Source: Tsukamurella ocularis (GTDB taxonomy: Bacteria; Actinomycetota; Actinomycetes; Mycobacteriales; Mycobacteriaceae). From it: a DNA stretch of 64,000 bases. The position numbers and the translations under genes are program-made. Below the pieces are notes generated by a model that did not search any database, was not told the DNA's origin, and saw nothing but the letters and a program-made list of their open reading frames with translations. Each line of letters begins with the position of its first letter. The stretch's first letter is position 1. Location of the stretch: the NCBI RefSeq assembly GCF_024807615.1, contig NZ_JANUCJ010000001.1:310001-374000 (forward strand), in the 5' to 3' direction. Of the stretch, positions 1,838 to 59,421 are shown one piece after another.

Positions 1838-3925
1838 TCAGGCGCAGCCCAGGCGGTCGAGGACCCAGGCGTACTCGAAGGCGGTCTCGCGCCACTTCGC
1901 GTACCGCCCGCTGACGCCGGCGTGGCCGGCGACCATCTCCGTCTTGAGCAAGATCTGCTCGCCGGACGTGCTGTGGTCGAGGAGCTTCGCCACCCACTTC
2001 GCGGGCTCCGTGGGGAGCACGCGGGTGTCGTTGAGCGAGGTGGTCGCGAGGATCGCCGGATAGGGCTTCGCGGCGACGTTCTCGTACGGCGAGTAGTCCC
2101 GCATGTACCGGTACACCTCGGCGCTCGCCAGCGGGTTGCCCCACTCGTCCCACTCCCCCACGGTCAGTGGCAGGCTCGGGTCGAGGATCGAGGTGAGCGG
2201 GTCCACGAAGGGCACGTCGGCGACGATGCCGGAGAACAGCTCCGGCGCCAGGTTCGCGACGGCGCCCACGAGCAGGCCGCCGGCGCTGCCGCCCATCGCC
2301 ACCAGCCGCCGCGGCTCCGCGCGGCCGGTGTCGACGAGATGTCGTGCAACGTCGACGAAGTCGGTGAAGGTGTTGCGCTTCTCCAGCTGCTTGCCGTGGT
2401 CGTACCAGGCACGACCCATCTCGCCGCCACCGCGCACGTGCGCCACCACGAAGGCCACGCCGCGGTCCATGAGCGAGAGCCTGGCGACGGAGAACCATGG
2501 GTCGAGGGTGGCCTCGTAGGAGCCGTAGCCGTACAACAGGGTCGGTGCCACGCCGTCGCCGACGTCCTTGCGCCGCACCACGGACACGGGGATCCGCGCG
2601 CCGTCGGACGCGGCCACCCAGAGCCGCTCGGCGGCGTACAGCGACGCCTCGTACCCGGGGACGTTGGCCCGCTTGAGCACCGTCTGCTCCCCCGTCGCCG
2701 GATCGAGCTCGAGGACGGTGCCCGGGGTCACGAAGGACTCGTACGCGAGGCGCAGCCGCGGCGCGTCCCACTCGGGGTTCGCTCCGGGTCCGAGGTTCAC
2801 CAGTTCCTCGCCCGGGTCCCACTCGGTGAACTCCGGTGCCAACGTCGCCGCGGCGAGCGCGAGGCGGGGCAGGCCGCCCCGTCGGTACCCGAGGGCGAGC
2901 CGTCGGGCGTAGGCGTCCACGTACTCGAGCCGCACGTCGTCGCGGTGCGGAACGAGCACCGTCCACTCCTCGGGGGCATCCACGGAGGCCGAGGCGAGCT
3001 CGAAGTTGATCCCGGCGCGGTTGTGCAGGAACAGGAACCGGTCCTCGCCGCCGAGCACCGCATGCTCGACCGAGTACTCGACGTCCTCCTCGCGGGGCCG
3101 CAGAACGCGGAACTCGCCCGTCGGGTCCGCGGCGTCGAGGACGTGCGTCTCGGAGCTCAGCGTCGACGAGGCGGCGATCATGAGGTACTTCTCGCTGCGG
3201 GTCAGCCCGATGCCGACGCCGAAGCGCTGGTCGGTCTCGTGGAAGACCTTCACATCATCTGCGGTCGAGCCGATCTCGTGCCGCCAGATCGTGTCGGCGC
3301 GCCAGGCGTCGTCGACGGTGGTGTAGAACAGGTGTCGCCCGTCGAGGGCCCAGGTGGCGCCGTAGAAGACACCCTCGACGGTATCGGACAACGCCTCGCC
3401 GGTGTCGATGTTCCTGATACGCAGCGTGAACCGCTCGTCGCCCGAGGTGTCCAGCGAGTAGGCCAGCAGCGCACCGTCGGGCGAGACCGAGGCGGCGCCG
3501 ACGGCGATGTACTCGTGCCCCTCCGCCTCGACGTTGAGGTCGAGGAGCACCTGCTCGCCGGGCAGCGGCTCGTCGGAGAGGACCGGCGGGATCCAGTCCT
3601 CGGGGCCGGCGATCGGTGCGCGGCAATGGATCCCGTACTGCTTGCCCTCGACGGTGCGCGCGTAGTACCAGTGATCCTTGCGGCGCTGCGGGACCGACAT
3701 GTCGGTCTCCTGGGTGTGCGCCTTGATCTCGCCGAAGATCGCCTCGCGTAGCGGCTCGTGGTCCGCGGTGGCCGCGTCGGTGAAGGCGTTGTGGGCGCGG
3801 AGGTAGTCGAGCACCTCGTCGTCGGAGGTGTCGGCGAGCCAGGCGTAATCGTCGATCACGGTGTCGCCGTGGAAGGTCCGCGGCGCCGGGACCTTCTTCG
3901 CGACGGGCTGGGCCGGGGCGCTCAT
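1838..3925 (-). CDS. ptrB: Oligopeptidase B-type S9 serine peptidase
   Basis: The 695-residue cytosolic S9A peptidase cleaves small peptides, in oligopeptidase B after basic residues. An N-terminal beta-propeller (about residues 70-410) precedes the alpha/beta-hydrolase domain. The catalytic triad is readable: Ser547 in GGSAGG, Asp633 in LNDTRV and His668 in [25 protein letters not shown] is a typical OpB stretch. The start ATG overlaps the purC stop (ATGA), so the two genes are translationally coupled. From memory, M. tuberculosis carries this gene split as ptrBa/ptrBb; here it is one intact frame. Its 3' end abuts the broken AraC-type gene. Confidence 0.93.
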
Positions 3926-4812
3926 GCCGCTCCGCCCGGCCAGTCGGCGAAGCTCAGGCCCGAGATGCGCTCGTAGGCCTCGATGTAGCGGGCGCGGGTC
4001 CGTTCGACCACGTCGGCGGGGAGGGGCGGCGGCGGACTGCCGGCGTCGGTCGACCAGCCGGATTCCTTGGTGAGCCAGTCACGCACGATCTGCTTGTCGA
4101 AGCTCGGAAGCGCGGACCCGGGAGAATACAGATCGCCGTCCCAGTAGCGCGAGGAGTCGGGCGTGAGCACCTCGTCGGCGAGGAGGAGGTCACCGTCGGA
4201 GCTGCGCCCGAATTCGAACTTGGTGTCCGCGAGAATGATCCCGCGCTCGCGGGCGATGTCGGCGCCGCGCGCGTAGACGTCCAAGGTGAGCTCGCGCAGC
4301 CGCGTCGCCAGCTCGAGGCCGACGTCCTCGGCGACGCGCTCGAAGGAGACGTTCTCGTCGTGGTCGCCCACGGCGGCCTTGGTCGCGGGGGTGAAGATCG
4401 GCGGGTCGATGCGGCTGCCGTCGACCAGGCCCGCCGGGAGTGGCACGCCGCACACCTCGCCGTTCGCGCGGTACTCCTTGAGGCCGGAGCCCGTGAGGTA
4501 GCCGCGGGCTACGCATTCCACCGGCACCATGTCGAGCCGGCGCGTGACGAGCGCGCGGCCGAGCACCGACTCGGGGATGCGCGGATCGTCGGCAGGCCCG
4601 GCGAGGTGGTTCGCCACCCCGAGGGCGTCGAAGAAGAAGACCGACATCGCCGTGAGCACGCGCCCCTTGTCGGGGATCGCGGTGTCCAGGATGTAATCGT
4701 AGGCGCTGATCCGGTCGCTCGCGACGAGCAGCAGGTGCTCGTCGTCGATCTCGTACAGCTCGCGGACCTTGCCCGAGTAGATCGGCGTGTATTCGCTCAG
4801 TTCAGGACGCAC
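3922..4812 (-). CDS. purC: SAICAR synthetase
   Basis: Phosphoribosylaminoimidazole-succinocarboxamide synthase catalyses the ATP-dependent joining of CAIR and aspartate in de novo purine synthesis. The 296-residue protein begins with [28 protein letters not shown], which carries the nucleotide-binding KVREVY-like motif and the SDRISAFD-like signature, and later has [13 protein letters not shown]. These are PurC hallmarks. GTG 4812 is chosen: on the minus strand TAAGGT (plus 4819-4824) sits 6 bases upstream, which fits a leaderless mRNA. ptrB follows with a 4-base overlap. The gene is divergent from the DUF559 unit. Confidence 0.95.
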
Positions 4813-4834
4813 TCCGCCACCTTATCGCCTGACG

Positions 4835-4892
4835 GTTCCCTGCGGTTTCGGCGGGCGAATCGCAGGTCGCGGCCGCCGAAACAGCAGGGAAC
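4835..4892. repeat. 58-bp hairpin repeat, copy A
   Basis: The left arm GTTCCCTGCGGTTTCGGCGG (4835-4854) and the right arm (4873-4892) are complementary at 19 of 20 positions around an 18-base spacer. A second copy in the same orientation lies at 5838-5895 and matches at 55 of 58 positions. Copy A is in the divergent promoter gap between purC and the DUF559 gene, where no terminator is needed. Confidence 0.9.
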
Positions 4893-4912
4893 GCGTCGGA
4901 GGGGAACCGTGC

Positions 4913-5845
4913 GTGCGGGTGGTGCGTCCAATTCATATGATCCGCCGAACGCGCGACCTACTGCGGACGGGGAGCCCGCACGCGATGCGGCACGACTCGA
5001 TATCCGTCATTCAGGGCGTCCGGCGCGATGGCGCAGCCGCAGCTACCGCCCGCGACGTGCGCAACGCGCTGGCCATCGCGTACCCAGATGCCGTGTTCAC
5101 CGGTTGGACCGCCGCGGCCCCCCACGGCGCCCTCTACACCGAGGGCCATGCACCGGAGATCCGCCTACCGCAACAGCGCACCCGGAAGGGAGTGATCATC
5201 CGCGTGGGCCGGCTGAACGACGAGGACGTCGAGATCGTCCTGCGCCGACGGGCCACGAGCGGGGCCCTCACGGCCGCGGACATCGCTCGGCACACCACCG
5301 ACGACGAGGCAATCGCGGGCTTCGACCAGTGCCTTCGCGTCGATCGCTACGGCAGGTCGGTGACCACGAAGAGGGCTGTCCAGGCGTACCTCGACGCACA
5401 CCCCCGGTTCTACGGCGCACGTCGGGTGCTGGCCGTGCTCGCCGAATCGAGCACCGGCACCGACTCGCATTGGGAGACGTACACGCGTCTCGCCGTCCAT
5501 CGCTCAGGACTGACCTTCTTCACGCCCCAGTCACCGGTCCCCGGCACCCAGTACCACGTGGACCTCGGAGACCAGGAGCACCGGATCGCGATCGAGTACG
5601 ACGGCGGATATCACCGCTCAGTCGCCCAGCAGCGAAAGGACATTCGCCGCTGGAACGCGATCACCGATCAGAAGTGGGTGATCATCAGAGTCACGTCGGA
5701 GACGCTCACCGGTGACCTCACGTCGTTCGTCGCTCGGATCGTGTCCGAGTTGCGACGACGCGGGTGGTCCGGCCCCGCACCGGCGGTCCCCCGTCTCCAC
5801 CTCGCGGCGAGCACGACAGCGAAACCGGGATCATTCAGTTCCTAG
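4913..5845 (+). CDS. AbiEi-like / DUF559 endonuclease-fold protein
   Basis: The 310-residue protein has an N-terminal winged-helix-like part with the AbiEi-type text VFTGWTAAAPHGALY and a C-terminal DUF559 (Vsr-like, PD-(D/E)xK) domain. Candidate catalytic residues are Glu188 (SHWE), Asp217 (YHVDLG) and Glu228 with Asp230 (IAIEYDGGYH), followed by DIRRWN and VIIRVTSE. GTG 4913 has a good Shine-Dalgarno (GGAGGGG at 4898-4904); ATG 4937 is the alternative start. The gene sits alone between purC and purB and is flanked by the two hairpin copies; its TAG stop is inside copy B. The function of such proteins is unsettled; a nuclease or DNA-binding role is inferred from the fold. Confidence 0.8.
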   Translation: MRVVRPIHMIRRTRDLLRTGSPHAMRHDSISVIQGVRRDGAAAATARDVRNALAIAYPDAVFTGWTAAAPHGALYTEGHAPEIRLPQQRTRKGVIIRVGRLNDEDVEIVLRRRATSGALTAADIARHTTDDEAIAGFDQCLRVDRYGRSVTTKRAVQAYLDAHPRFYGARRVLAVLAESSTGTDSHWETYTRLAVHRSGLTFFTPQSPVPGTQYHVDLGDQEHRIAIEYDGGYHRSVAQQRKDIRRWNAITDQKWVIIRVTSETLTGDLTSFVARIVSELRRRGWSGPAPAVPRLHLAASTTAKPGSFSS

Positions 5846-5895
5846 CGGTTTCGGCGGGCGAATCGCAGGTCGCGACCGCCGAAACAGCAGGGAAC
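5838..5895. repeat. 58-bp hairpin repeat, copy B
   Basis: Same orientation as copy A, 1003 bases further on. The three differences are CT to TA near the left end and one spacer base. The CT-to-TA change creates the TAG stop (5843-5845) of the DUF559 gene. The right arm (5876-5895) is identical to that of copy A. It lies between the convergent stops of the DUF559 gene and purB, so it may also act as a terminator. Confidence 0.9.
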
Positions 5896-5901
5896 CGGGG
5901 G

Positions 5902-7329
5902 TCAGAGGATGGGCGCGGGGGTGTAGCCGGCGGCGGAAGGGTACTTCGCGACGAGTTCCTCGACGGACGCGACGACCTGGGCCACCTGGGCCTCGGCGGC
6001 GCCGGTGAAGGCGGCGCGGTCGGCCAGCGCCGCATCGAGATCCGCGCGCGACAGTCCGAGGCGGGAGTCGCCGGCGAGGCGGTCCAGCAGGTCGGGCTCC
6101 TTGCCCTCCTCGCGCATGGCCAGTGCCACGGCGACGGCGTGCTCCTTGATCGCCTCGTGTGCGACCTCGCGGCCGACGCCCGCGCGCACGGCCGCCATGA
6201 GGACTCGGGTGGTGGCGAGGAAGGGCAGGTAGCGGTTCAGCTCGTTCTCGATCACGGCGGGGTAAGCGCCGAACTCGTCGAGGACGGTCAGGAAGGTCTC
6301 GAAGAGGCCGTCGATCGCGAAGAACGAATCCGGCAGGGCCACGCGGCGGATCACGGAGCAGAAGACGTCGCCCTCGTTCCACTGCGAGCCCGCCATCTCG
6401 GCCGCCATCGAGCCGAAGCCGCGCAGGATCACGGTCAGGCCGTTGACGCGCTCGCACGAGCGGGTGTTCATCTTGTGCGGCATCGCGGAGCTGCCCACCT
6501 GGCCGGGCTGGAAGCCTTCGGTGACCAGCTCGTGCCCGGCCATGAGCCGGATCGTCGTGGCCATCGACGACGGTCCCGCCGCCACCTGGACCAGGGCACT
6601 CACGACATCGTGATCGAGCGAGCGCGGATACACCTGGCCGACGGAGACGAAGGACTGCGAGAAGCCCAAATGCTCGGCGACGCGCGACTCCAGCTCAGCC
6701 AGCTTGGCGGCGTCGCCGCCGAGGAGGTCGAGCATGTCCTGCGAGGTGCCCATCGGGCCCTTGATGCCGCGCAGCGGGTAGCGGCCGATGAGGTCCTCGA
6801 GTCGGGCGATCGCCACCAACATCTCGTTGGCCGCCGAAGCGAAGCGCTTCCCCAGCGTCGTGGCCTGCGCCGCGACGTTGTGCGAGCGGCCCGCCATGAC
6901 GACCGACGAGTACTGCGCGGCCCGCTCGGCGAGCCGGGCCGCCACAGCCACGGCGTGGTCGCGGACGTACTCCAGCGAGCGCAGCACCTGCAGCTGCTCG
7001 ACGTTCTCCGTCAGGTCGCGCGAGGTCATGCCCTTGTGGATCTGCTCGAAGCCGGCGAGGTCGCTGAACTCCTCGATCCGAGCCTTCACGTCGTGCCGGG
7101 TGATCCGCTCGCGCTCCGCGATCGACGCGAGGTCCACCTGGTCGACGACCTTCTCGTACGCCTCGACGGCACCGTCGGGAACATCGATCCCGAGGTCGCG
7201 CTGCGCCCTCAGCACCGCGATCCACAGCTGGCGCTCCAGCACGATCTTGTACTCCGGCGACCACAGCTCGCGCATGCGCGGGCTGGCGTACCGGTTGGCG
7301 AGGACGTCGGGGATGCGGGGAGTGCTCAC
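5902..7329 (-). CDS. purB: Adenylosuccinate lyase
   Basis: PurB removes fumarate from SAICAR and from adenylosuccinate in purine synthesis. The 475-residue protein has the fumarase/aspartase superfamily signature at about residues 279-294 (SSAMPHKMNTRS), the TSRDLTEN region near residue 102 and AGRSHNVAAQ near residue 146 with the catalytic His. It is GTG-initiated at 7329. A weak -10-like GAGAAT lies 6 bases upstream on the minus strand. Together with purC and purD it makes a purine cluster on one strand, interrupted by the DUF559 unit and a TetR gene. Confidence 0.95.
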   Translation of the reverse strand: MSTPRIPDVLANRYASPRMRELWSPEYKIVLERQLWIAVLRAQRDLGIDVPDGAVEAYEKVVDQVDLASIAERERITRHDVKARIEEFSDLAGFEQIHKGMTSRDLTENVEQLQVLRSLEYVRDHAVAVAARLAERAAQYSSVVMAGRSHNVAAQATTLGKRFASAANEMLVAIARLEDLIGRYPLRGIKGPMGTSQDMLDLLGGDAAKLAELESRVAEHLGFSQSFVSVGQVYPRSLDHDVVSALVQVAAGPSSMATTIRLMAGHELVTEGFQPGQVGSSAMPHKMNTRSCERVNGLTVILRGFGSMAAEMAGSQWNEGDVFCSVIRRVALPDSFFAIDGLFETFLTVLDEFGAYPAVIENELNRYLPFLATTRVLMAAVRAGVGREVAHEAIKEHAVAVALAMREEGKEPDLLDRLAGDSRLGLSRADLDAALADRAAFTGAAEAQVAQVVASVEELVAKYPSAAGYTPAPIL

Positions 7330-38388: not shown

Positions 38389-38447
38389 ATTGAACGATGT
38401 TTTGGAGAGTCCGACCTGAGGTCTTCCTCTCCAGAACGTCGTTCAAT
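38389..38447. repeat. Long imperfect hairpin, 21-bp arms
   Basis: The left arm (38389-38409) reads ATTGAACGATGTTTTGGAG and on; the right arm is 38427-38447. They match at 19 of 21 positions, with two G-T wobble positions, around a 17-base loop. The right arm read on the minus strand holds ACGTTCTGGAG, the GTTCTG core. Arm and loop size match the 58-bp repeats beside the DUF559 gene. Confidence 0.8.
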
Positions 38448-57747: not shown

Positions 57748-58440
57748 ATGTTGCTGAAGAGGCGTCAGGTGCTGGTGGGGCTGGCTGCGTTGCCCGCCGC
57801 CGCGGTCGCCACGTCGCTGACCGTCCCGCACGCCGTCGCGGCCGACGCCGACAAGGCGCTGCTCGACGCCGCGGTCGCGGCCGCGCCGAAGGCCCGTGAG
57901 GTCATCACGGTGGCGGCACCATCGTTCTCCTCGACCGACGTGCAGGTCTCGGCCTGGGCCTTGCTCGCGCAGGGGTGGACGAAGGTCTACGGACCGGTCC
58001 CGGGCAAGGTCGGCCAGCAGGGCATCGGCGAGGGCAAGGACGGCGTGCCCCGCACCCCGTTCGGCGTCTTCACGCTCGACCTCGCGTTCGGCCGGCAGGA
58101 CAACCCGGGCACCACCCTGCCCTACACGAAGGTGACGAATCAGCACTGGTGGGACGGGAACGTCAACTCCCCCACCTATGACCGCATGGTCGTCCAGGCA
58201 GCCAGCCCCGGGCCCGAGAGCGAGAACCTCTACGACATCGGCCCCGTCTACGACTACGCCGTGCACTTCGACAACAACCCCAGCCACACCCCGGGCAAGG
58301 GCGGCGCGATGTTCCTGCACGTCACCGACGGCAAGCCGACGCTGGGCTGCGTCGCGATCAGCCGCGACGGCATGATCACGCTGCTGAAATGGCTGGCGCC
58401 CGCACACAACCCGGTCCTGGTCACCGGCCTCGCCGGCTAA
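57748..58440 (+). CDS. L,D-transpeptidase (YkuD) family protein
   Basis: The 230-residue exported protein has an N-terminal signal with KRRQVLVGLAALPAAAVA (a possible Tat signal) and a YkuD domain with His191 (FLHVTDG) and the nucleophile Cys201 in PTLGCVAIS. It lacks the Ig-like repeats of the LprQ-type enzyme at 28725. CATAAT (57735-57740) is 7 bases before ATG 57748. It crosslinks peptidoglycan or attaches proteins. Confidence 0.85.
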   Translation: MLLKRRQVLVGLAALPAAAVATSLTVPHAVAADADKALLDAAVAAAPKAREVITVAAPSFSSTDVQVSAWALLAQGWTKVYGPVPGKVGQQGIGEGKDGVPRTPFGVFTLDLAFGRQDNPGTTLPYTKVTNQHWWDGNVNSPTYDRMVVQAASPGPESENLYDIGPVYDYAVHFDNNPSHTPGKGGAMFLHVTDGKPTLGCVAISRDGMITLLKWLAPAHNPVLVTGLAG

Positions 58441-58442
58441 TC

Positions 58443-58504
58443 CACCTTTCCAAGCGTTCTGCGACGGAATTCGCCACAGCGATCGCAGAACGCTTCGAAA
58501 GGTG
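58443..58504. repeat. Long hairpin, 22-bp arms
   Basis: The left arm (58443-58464: CACCTTTCCAAGCGTTCTGC and on) pairs with 58483-58504 at 21 of 22 around an 18-base loop. It contains GCGTTCTGCGA, the GTTCTG core. It lies between convergent genes and may also act as terminator. Arm and loop size match the repeats at 4835 and 5838. Confidence 0.85.
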
Positions 58505-58590
58505 TGCTCGCCGCCGGACCACGCGCGGACGATGCGCGGACCGCATAACCATGCCCGACGATGCCCCGGCCCGTCCAGGCTGGCCGCCTG

Positions 58591-59421
58591 CTACACGTGC
58601 TGCGCGATCCACCCCGACAGCGCGGGGATCACCGCACCGGGCGAGAGGATCCATTGGTTGTGCCCCAGCGGATCCGCAATCCGCCGGTGGACCGACGACG
58701 GGAACTTCTCCCCCACGAACCGCGACTGCTTCTCGGAGACCAGCTCATCACCCGCGATCGCGACGGTCAGCACCGGTGTCCGCGTCCCCGCCAGACGCGC
58801 CTCGTAGTCCACGTCCGCGCCGGCGACGTTGAAGTCGCCGGTCTGCACGAGATGATCGAAATCGGCCACGATCCCGGCGGGCACCTCGCCGAGGCCGTCC
58901 GGACCGGACCAGTGGCCCCGTCGGGCGGCGGCGCGCGCGGCGACGGAGGTCCCGATCCGACGCGCGGCCCCCGACAGCCCGTCGAGCTTGTAATAGCCCG
59001 TGCCACAGGCGATCAGGATCACCCCGGCGAGATTCCGGCGGGCCCGAGCCGCGTACATCACGCCCATCAGGCCACCGAGGCTGTGCCCCAGCAGGACCCG
59101 CGGCGCGCCGGGGAACTTCTGCCGGGCCAGCGCGGAGACCGCGGGGTAATCCTCGACCACCACGTCCTGGAAGCCGTGCTTCCCCCCGGCGCCGCGGGGC
59201 CGCGAATCGCCCTGCCCGCGCAGCTCGGCGACGACCGCGTTGAAGCCCGCGTCGATCAGCCCGCGCCCGAAGTCGTCGAAGTAGCCGGCGGGCACGTTCA
59301 CGCCGGGCCAGATCATGAGCACGGGCGCCGTGGGATCGGGGCCGCGGAAGATCCGGACGGGATTGGTGGTGCCGTCCTTGTACGTGAGCGTCGCGACGGT
59401 GGGCCGCGCCGTCGACGTCAC
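58591..59421 (-). CDS. Alpha/beta hydrolase
   Basis: The 276-residue hydrolase has MIWPGVNVPAGYFDDFGRGL, nucleophile Ser in LLGHSLGGLMG, and His in PLGHNQWI. It is closer to serine aminopeptidase/monoacylglycerol lipase-like enzymes. GTG 59421 overlaps the stop of the upstream membrane protein (GTGA), so they are coupled. Confidence 0.83.
   Translation of the reverse strand: MTSTARPTVATLTYKDGTTNPVRIFRGPDPTAPVLMIWPGVNVPAGYFDDFGRGLIDAGFNAVVAELRGQGDSRPRGAGGKHGFQDVVVEDYPAVSALARQKFPGAPRVLLGHSLGGLMGVMYAARARRNLAGVILIACGTGYYKLDGLSGAARRIGTSVAARAAARRGHWSGPDGLGEVPAGIVADFDHLVQTGDFNVAGADVDYEARLAGTRTPVLTVAIAGDELVSEKQSRFVGEKFPSSVHRRIADPLGHNQWILSPGAVIPALSGWIAQHV

Follow-up and report, generated by a model that had tools for sequence, protein, structure and literature searches.

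Closest described systems

Several described systems resemble the locus reported here. REP and REPIN palindromes with their RAYT genes are alike in that a single gene lies within its palindromes and many lone palindromes are present, often between convergent ORFs; they are also alike in that enzyme and palindrome co-vary and that long inverted repeats mark a second class (PMC3733652, PMC8266576). According to Di Nocera 2013, RAYT genes can have either kind of flank, and REPs lie chiefly between ORFs that are unidirectional or convergent; no word starting with actinobacteria, mycobacter, tsukamurella or DUF occurs in its main text (PMC3733652). Unlike RAYT, which is an HUH protein, the enzyme here is a DUF559/Vsr-like nuclease. 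The palindromes are 58-65 nt long in types 1-3 whereas REPs are 20-40, and in the 86 type-2-model copies among the matches listed GTAG lies no more than 8 nt from an end in none and CGTC in 10. The positions of the palindromes are common to species while their arms switch in place.

The EDxHD homing endonuclease I-Bth0305I appears to be alike in its nuclease fold (at a weak E-value), in matching conserved residues and in a target of about 60 bp; a review describes it as dimerising on a target that spans nearly 60 bp (PMC3943268). A palindrome of 58-65 nt could serve a dimer of such an enzyme. In contrast to EDxHD homing endonucleases, the gene here is not within an intron or intein, it is flanked by two whole putative targets instead of splitting one, there would be many targets per genome, and an AbiEi-like part replaces the phage DNA-binding modules.

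Domains of the AbiEi type are DNA-binding antitoxin domains. AbiEi antitoxins share a weak N-terminal similarity with the protein, but no AbiEii toxin partner is present (only purC and purB adjoin the gene, also in T. tyrosinosolvens) and the protein has a nuclease domain. IS200/IS605 elements, DDE insertion sequences and MITEs are alike as small one-gene elements with gene-less lone relatives and palindromic or inverted ends; they differ in that no known transposase domain was found here, no target-site duplication was found at the lone copies among the matches listed, and the main clade has direct palindromes as its ends. Since the defining features of REP/RAYT, insertion-sequence and AbiE systems fail here, the unit is filed under none of them, nor under homing.

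No paper pairing DUF559 or a like endonuclease with palindromes was found by title or start of abstract in the open-access PMC literature. One paper, on a Vsr-like protein in Caulobacter, mentions DUF559 once (PMC12907096). The DUF559-palindrome family is apparently undescribed. It may spread itself as a DNA system in a way that differs from known ones, and the best reading resembles homing or REP/RAYT with another kind of enzyme. We consider it slightly more likely than not that the unit, a nuclease gene between two palindromes, belongs to a family of small selfish elements in which the palindrome is the target of the nuclease and spread is driven by repair. The fuller proposal is a new selfish class in the Mycobacteriales, with a Vsr-like homing-type nuclease, palindromic targets of about 60 bp that are dispersed at the ends of convergent genes and rewritten in place across the genome to match the resident unit, and full cassettes that home in or fall out; for this the chances seem to us evenly balanced.

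The unit in the window

The window is the whole stretch of DNA that was analysed, 64,000 nt from Tsukamurella ocularis. Its relevant features are:

3922..4812, minus strand: purC, the left host gene
4835..4892, plus strand: palindrome A (type 1), with 20-nt arms and loop GCGAATCGCAGGTCGCGG; the same type lies beside L053-L057 in relatives
4937..5845, plus strand: DUF559 gene, with an AbiEi-like N-terminal part (weak matches) and a Vsr/EDxHD-like nuclease domain
5838..5895, plus strand: palindrome B (type 1), a direct copy of palindrome A
5902..7329, minus strand: purB, the right host gene
38389..38447, minus strand: lone type-2 palindrome between convergent genes
58442..58505, plus strand: lone type-3 palindrome, just 3' of the stop codon of a gene that we take, by its sequence, to be L,D-transpeptidase-like

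The earlier note had described two direct 58-nt hairpins around a DUF559 gene between purC and purB, and these are present within the span it gave, alike at 55 of 58 positions. The arms pair at 19 of 20 positions in palindrome A and at 17 of 20 in palindrome B. The open frame covers 4787-5845, and comparison with the annotated T. tyrosinosolvens gene sets the ATG at 4937 as the likely start. Palindrome B shares 8 nt with the end of the gene, including the stop codon, and starts 6 nt past the stop codon of purB in the reading direction of purB. Between palindrome A and the gene lies GGTGCGTCCAATTCATATGAT (4920-4942), which is nearly identical before several purB-site units and is similar to the first codons of purC (GTGCGTCCTGAACTG).

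In 20 windows shuffled by an order 1 Markov model, the arms of the best 58-nt place with the geometry of A and B paired at 14-16 of 20 positions. At least 16 pairs are found at four places in the real window, namely A, B, 35923 and 58445, the last inside the lone copy of a sister palindrome. These shuffled windows, together with the counts of flanking repeats against pseudo-genes given below, rule out a chance pair of hairpins. No RNA family matched at its gathering score in the stretches searched.

A family of bracketed genes

The genus was represented by 16 Tsukamurella genomes (G000-G015). Family members at E<=1e-10 are found in 15 of the 16, as 51 matched stretches that reduce to 45 loci; 17 of the 45 contain an in-frame stop, some close to the end. 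The window's genome has two paralogs, one 57% identical and the other 44% identical with one in-frame stop. Each is flanked by direct palindromes, 64-65 nt long, that differ from those of the other members, and all three members of this genome thus have their own palindrome pair. The type-2 unit of this genome is at about C5:82185-83234 and the type-3 unit at about C3:995478-996490.

A locus was scored as bracketed when a direct or inverted repeat between its 300-nt flanks scored at least 18. Flanking repeats are present at 37 of 44 testable genus loci (L064, at a contig end, was excluded from the 45) and absent at seven, vs 10 of 594 pseudo-genes obtained by sliding along the window, a null drawn from this window alone. 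The link between the hairpins and DUF559 genes suggested by the earlier note is therefore beyond chance. Across the order, 162 of 298 genomes have a match at E<=1e-25. The order members scored were high-scoring matches taken in listed order, not a random draw: repeats bracket 16 of 27 loci from beyond the genus, and among the 41 rows that follow them 33 are bracketed, leaving 11 and 8 without a flanking repeat. A second null, built by pairing mismatched flanks among the 27 order loci (1404 comparisons), has a 95th percentile of 14.0, a 99th percentile of 26.0, which means that the cut of 18 passes some chance cases, and a maximum of 96, which arises because related units have repeats in common.

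The window's genome has 11 matches to PF04480, seven of them above the curated cut-off, and three of the 11 are the family members. Flanking repeats occur at four of the other eight (L042, over the cut-off, and L049, L051 and L052, under it) and not at L043, L046, L048 and L050. We therefore dropped the idea, based on the hairpin test alone, that only this DUF559 subfamily is bracketed. L049 (C3:325079), L051 (C4:58711) and L052 (C3:448916) have direct repeats of 79-95 nt, highly alike, on both sides; at E<=0.01 there is no Pfam match for L051 or L052.

A search for related loci in named genomes gave a single distant match. Two DUF559 proteins of G015 are identical to proteins of T. tyrosinosolvens NCTC13231, and the palindromes are also present in the NCTC13231 records NZ_LR134464.1 and NZ_LR134454.1. 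A phage origin was rejected, there being no match in 50,697 phage records and six weak matches in viral contigs, confined to the nuclease part. A plasmid origin was also rejected. Plasmid records (PLSDB) gave four matches, three of them to T. tyrosinosolvens 'plasmids', and two of these three, from NCTC13231, look like pieces of chromosome because they carry housekeeping genes (purB, purC and purD on NZ_LR134464.1, gatA and gatC on NZ_LR134451.1).

The predicted enzyme

The DUF559 identity of the gene holds: the C-terminal part of its product matches PF04480 at 27.7 bits, with a cut-off of 20.6. A match of the window protein to MTES_1575 is below its cut-off. Its N-terminal part has weak AbiEi matches; in L042 and L049 such matches exceed the cut-off. 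A Pfam search of 19 members finds DUF559 in 18 and MTES_1575 in 19, and neither an HUH/Y1 nor a DDE transposase domain. The NCBIfam model for the anti-phage protein ProA is matched weakly by 3 of the 19 (best E 0.001).

Five residues, E184, D213, E224, H230 and D239 (numbered from base 4925), are conserved, a pattern that fits the E-D-x-H-D series. E184, D213, H230 and D239 are each kept in all 37 readable genus members and E224 in 36 (8 of the 45 rows were excluded from these counts). In 67 order members, E184, D213 and H230 are each kept in 66, D239 in 67 and E224 in 64.

A structure model from seven sequences is confident over about residues 177-284 only and poor outside them (mean pLDDT 56). 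Foldseek gave no match at E<=0.001. Its first match is a long mitoribosome chain (TM 0.27/0.18, E 0.086) and its second the catalytic domain of I-Bth0305I (3r3p; probability 1.00, TM 0.76 on the target, 3.0 A, weak E of 0.14). The putative endonuclease 3hrl is a lower Foldseek match, and has an E of 0.044 in a profile search of PDB sequences.

Palindrome types and their pairing with the proteins

The palindromes fall into types 1-4 and others, which track the protein tree:

Type 1: GGTTTCGGCGG
Type 2: ATTGAACnnCGTT
Type 3: ACATCTTTCGAAGCGTTCTGCGA
Type 4: GATCTTCGGTGCGT

The centre CAGGT is invariant in the 12 type-1 and type-2 copies compared. In 24 direct-repeat units, protein distance correlates with palindrome distance (Mantel r=0.53, p=0.0002), four of the original 28 having been excluded as frameshifted or fragmentary; this and the other significance values ignore shared ancestry. 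The two palindromes of one unit differ by 0.13, vs 0.55 between units, and in seven units at the purB site they are 0.05-0.20 apart within a unit vs 0.43 between units. Since the differences within units are below those between them, the two palindromes of a unit change jointly.

Twelve rows form a clade apart, with inverted repeats in nine, direct repeats in two and neither in one. Its inverted repeats are mostly ACTTAACAGCGTTAGCCCAG..., about 70 nt long and not hairpins; this sequence or one close to it is found at L077, L078, L084, L086, L088, L089, L090 and L092. A lone palindrome in G007 (L401) has the same end sequence as this clade, and its arms are other than type 2.

Full, lone and empty sites

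The earlier note proposed a cassette-like insertion and a search of relatives for the purC-purB site, and the site is found both with and without the unit. In 14 genomes (G014, with no purC in reach, and G011, with no match, are outside the count) the gene is present in eight, as type 1 in G000, G002, G006, G007 and G009 and as type 2 in G001, G003 and G015; one palindrome without the gene is present in G004, G005 and G008, and neither in G010, G012 and G013. The unit is thus discrete, as the proposal had it. It is not a single recent insertion, since 8 of the 14 resolved sites hold the gene. In G007 the gene is in three pieces, and the unit fails the repeat score because its far palindrome is degenerate. 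Between G000 and G015 the flanks of the site are 93-94% alike while the proteins are 55% alike and the palindromes differ, which indicates that the content of the site has been exchanged.

A second site lies at a gene which we take to be rsmB. In the 14 of 16 genus genomes covered, this site is full in four (G000, G001, G005 and G008, the gene of G001 being frameshifted), decayed or interrupted in two (G009 and G012), occupied by a lone palindrome in four (G003, G004, G014 and G015) and by an ordinary GC-rich hairpin in four (G002, G006, G007 and G013).

Positions of the dispersed lone palindromes

The palindromes occur elsewhere in the genomes and beside other DUF559 genes, as the earlier note had suggested might be found: family members carry their own palindromes and lone copies are dispersed. 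Neither of two contrary patterns was seen, the gene in every relative without hairpins or hairpins with no link to DUF559 genes. A combined model of types 1-3 was discarded for misaligned arms, and a model built from type 2 alone (R1) found between 0 and 43 matches in each genome at E<=0.2; the scan counts both strands, so the number of places is about half. The type-3 pattern gave 0 to 11 places per genome, and a reversed-pattern control 0 in all 16. The eight genomes with a type-2 gene, at least two of which have only broken or fragmentary copies, hold more R1 matches than the eight without (one-sided Mann-Whitney p=0.0016, ancestry uncorrected), and the same comparison for type 3, with 6 vs 10 genomes, gave p=0.006 (ancestry uncorrected). 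G004 has 27 R1 matches and no family gene at E<=1e-10, which indicates that palindromes can exist without the gene.

Eighty-six lone copies among the R1 matches listed were analysed (73 retrieved, L102 and 12 from the window's genome; L401 is included). Among these, 54 lie between two gene 3' ends no more than 80 nt away (median 7 nt each side), 27 lie beside one gene 3' end, and the five beside none form one orthologous group, so that at least one gene 3' end adjoins 81 of the 86. Random places in the window (n=3000) lie between two gene 3' ends in 52 cases and beside one in 647.

This position keeps alive the explanation that the palindromes are bidirectional terminators, or binding sites of the DUF559 protein as a regulator, with arms that co-evolve with the protein under selection and are homogenised by ordinary gene conversion, not by nuclease-driven spread. 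The excess of lone copies between convergent genes, the ordinary GC-rich hairpin that replaces the palindrome at rsmB in four genomes, and the AbiEi-type domain matches, which are weak in the family and pass the cut-off for L042 and L049, all fit it. Neither strand has a T-run after palindrome A or B, which counts against ordinary intrinsic terminators; as the position of the lone copies fits, they are retained within this rival. The earlier note's argument against a terminator role for copy A is weak and its claim too strong, given that lone copies of a sister palindrome are mostly between convergent genes, though the T-run is missing. A pure regulator would not need the catalytic-type residues that are kept, and a needed regulator would not be expected to have so many broken gene copies (17 of 45 with an in-frame stop). 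The gene itself lies between its sites, and one site can carry different types. We regard this explanation as unlikely, though it is one to be taken seriously.

Concerted change of the arms

The arms of the dispersed lone copies change in concert with the unit of their own genome. In 74 of the lone copies among the matches listed, those from the eight genomes with a type-2 unit, the arms (38 positions) have on average 2.55 mismatches to their own unit and 7.29 to the units of other genomes (label permutation p=5e-5). Homology of the flanks placed 80 of the 86 lone copies among the matches listed in 20 orthologous groups, and these sites are conserved over several species while their arms change in place. 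When genomes were shuffled within sites (19 sites, 69 copies among the matches listed), the observed value was 2.71 vs 5.14 in the shuffles (p=5e-5). The arm difference is 0.096 across the sites of one genome vs 0.228 at one site between classes. The classes of G002, G004 and G014, which have no type-2 unit, were set from their own lone copies and these genomes stand outside the permutation tests.

The independent contrasts number about four classes, since G000, G001, G008 and G009 share one arm class, and the independent switches are accordingly few. The R1 listing favours classes near the model, which would act against the class pattern in G015 and G004. There are exceptions: L379 (G008) and L385 (G009) keep the G015/G004 class, L364 (G005) keeps the G000 class, and the second type-2 unit of G001 (L068) is not mirrored in its ten lone copies. 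One lone copy in G000 (L270) is a mosaic that arose in place: both of its arms combine ends of type 2 with an inner stem of type 1. In its ortholog in G008 (L374) the inner stem is of type 2.

The loops stay with the site within a class but not across classes. Their difference within a class is 0.140 at one site vs 0.262 within a genome; across classes it is 0.287 at one site, and 0.315 where both site and class differ.

These data bear on the analogy with REP hairpins and RAYT enzymes drawn in the earlier note. In a RAYT-like transposition the DUF559 protein would act on single-stranded DNA hairpins and mobilise both these and the unit, through a cut-and-paste or copy-and-paste route like that proposed for TnpA-REP and REPs. 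The anatomy is that of a REPtron, with a gene between its hairpins, many lone hairpins and a clade with mostly long inverted repeats, and the analogy stands as far as the lone hairpins are dispersed like REPs with arms that follow the resident unit. It gives way at the enzyme: no HUH/Y1 domain is among the Pfam matches of the 19 members, and the nearest solved fold is that of a homing endonuclease, which makes cleavage of double-stranded DNA with gene conversion at least as likely as a RAYT-like transposition of single strands. Shared lone sites whose arms change in place fit conversion better than fresh insertion, as do loops that follow the site over the genome within a class, though not across classes, and no target-site duplication of at least 5 nt (direct flank) was found in the 86 lone copies among the matches listed. 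Transposition of this kind is improbable in our judgement, slightly more so than the terminator or regulator explanation.

Proposed mechanism

Nuclease-driven conversion is the simplest account, and it is favoured by arms that change in concert at shared sites, by the mosaic and by an active site that is conserved. We infer binding, cutting, repair-driven copying and the direction of each change as follows. A dimer of the nuclease would take the two arms of a palindrome as its half-sites and make its cut close to CAGGT, the conserved centre. A break in any palindrome would be mended from another copy, mainly that of the resident unit, and the arms of dispersed lone copies would in this way be overwritten in place by the resident sequence. 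At times the whole unit may be copied into a lone site, turning lone into full, and recombination between the two direct palindromes may delete the gene, turning full into lone. Lone copies would persist longest between convergent genes, where they would be harmless and may act as terminators. One feature runs counter to homing: a homing enzyme normally spares its own copy, whereas this unit keeps two intact putative targets beside the nuclease gene.

If this reading is right, enzyme and target set shift specificity together, and the family would be a natural case of a nuclease and a set of genomic sites that switch sequence in step, which bears on the evolution of homing specificities and on the origin of palindromes at gene ends. 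It would extend the REP/RAYT idea to a second, unrelated type of enzyme within a bacterial order of large size. For DUF559, a widespread family of 'unknown function', the pairing supplies a concrete partner and a substrate that can be tested.

It is very improbable that the DUF559 genes are cargo of hairpins moved by another enzyme, for example a RAYT or an IS200-type transposase elsewhere. The hairpins of G004, which persist without a family member at E<=1e-10, would fit this, but the same gene family lies between hairpins in unit after unit, the palindrome type follows the protein clade, and the distant DUF559-like genes L042, L049, L051 and L052 are bracketed too. Least probable of all is an AbiE-like defence or toxin-antitoxin gene with insulating terminators on either side, which the weak AbiEi and ProA matches might suggest but which has one gene per unit with no AbiEii-type partner and leaves the dispersed lone copies and the unit-following arms unexplained.

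The two lone sites of the window in other genomes

The two lone sites of the window vary in content between genomes. At the type-2 site (38389), 15 of the 16 genomes were covered (G009 is outside): six have a lone palindrome, seven a short gap and G014 a different DUF559 unit (L095). G003 has 1218 nt of other sequence there (L296), with no DUF559 match.

At the type-3 site (58442), with a match in 15 genomes and G010 outside the classes, G000 and G015 have type 3 and G007 has a type-4 palindrome; short gaps are present in G003, G009 and G014 and other sequence in eight genomes. G000, G015 and G007 each have a unit of the type carried at this site (L038, L070 and L081), L038 and L081 each with an in-frame stop. 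G012 and G013 have type-3 units, but the palindrome is absent at this spot. In other species the spot (58440-58600) carries another short palindrome motif, ATGCG...CGCAT (L114, L115, L118-L120 and L123), which is perhaps a further repeat family.
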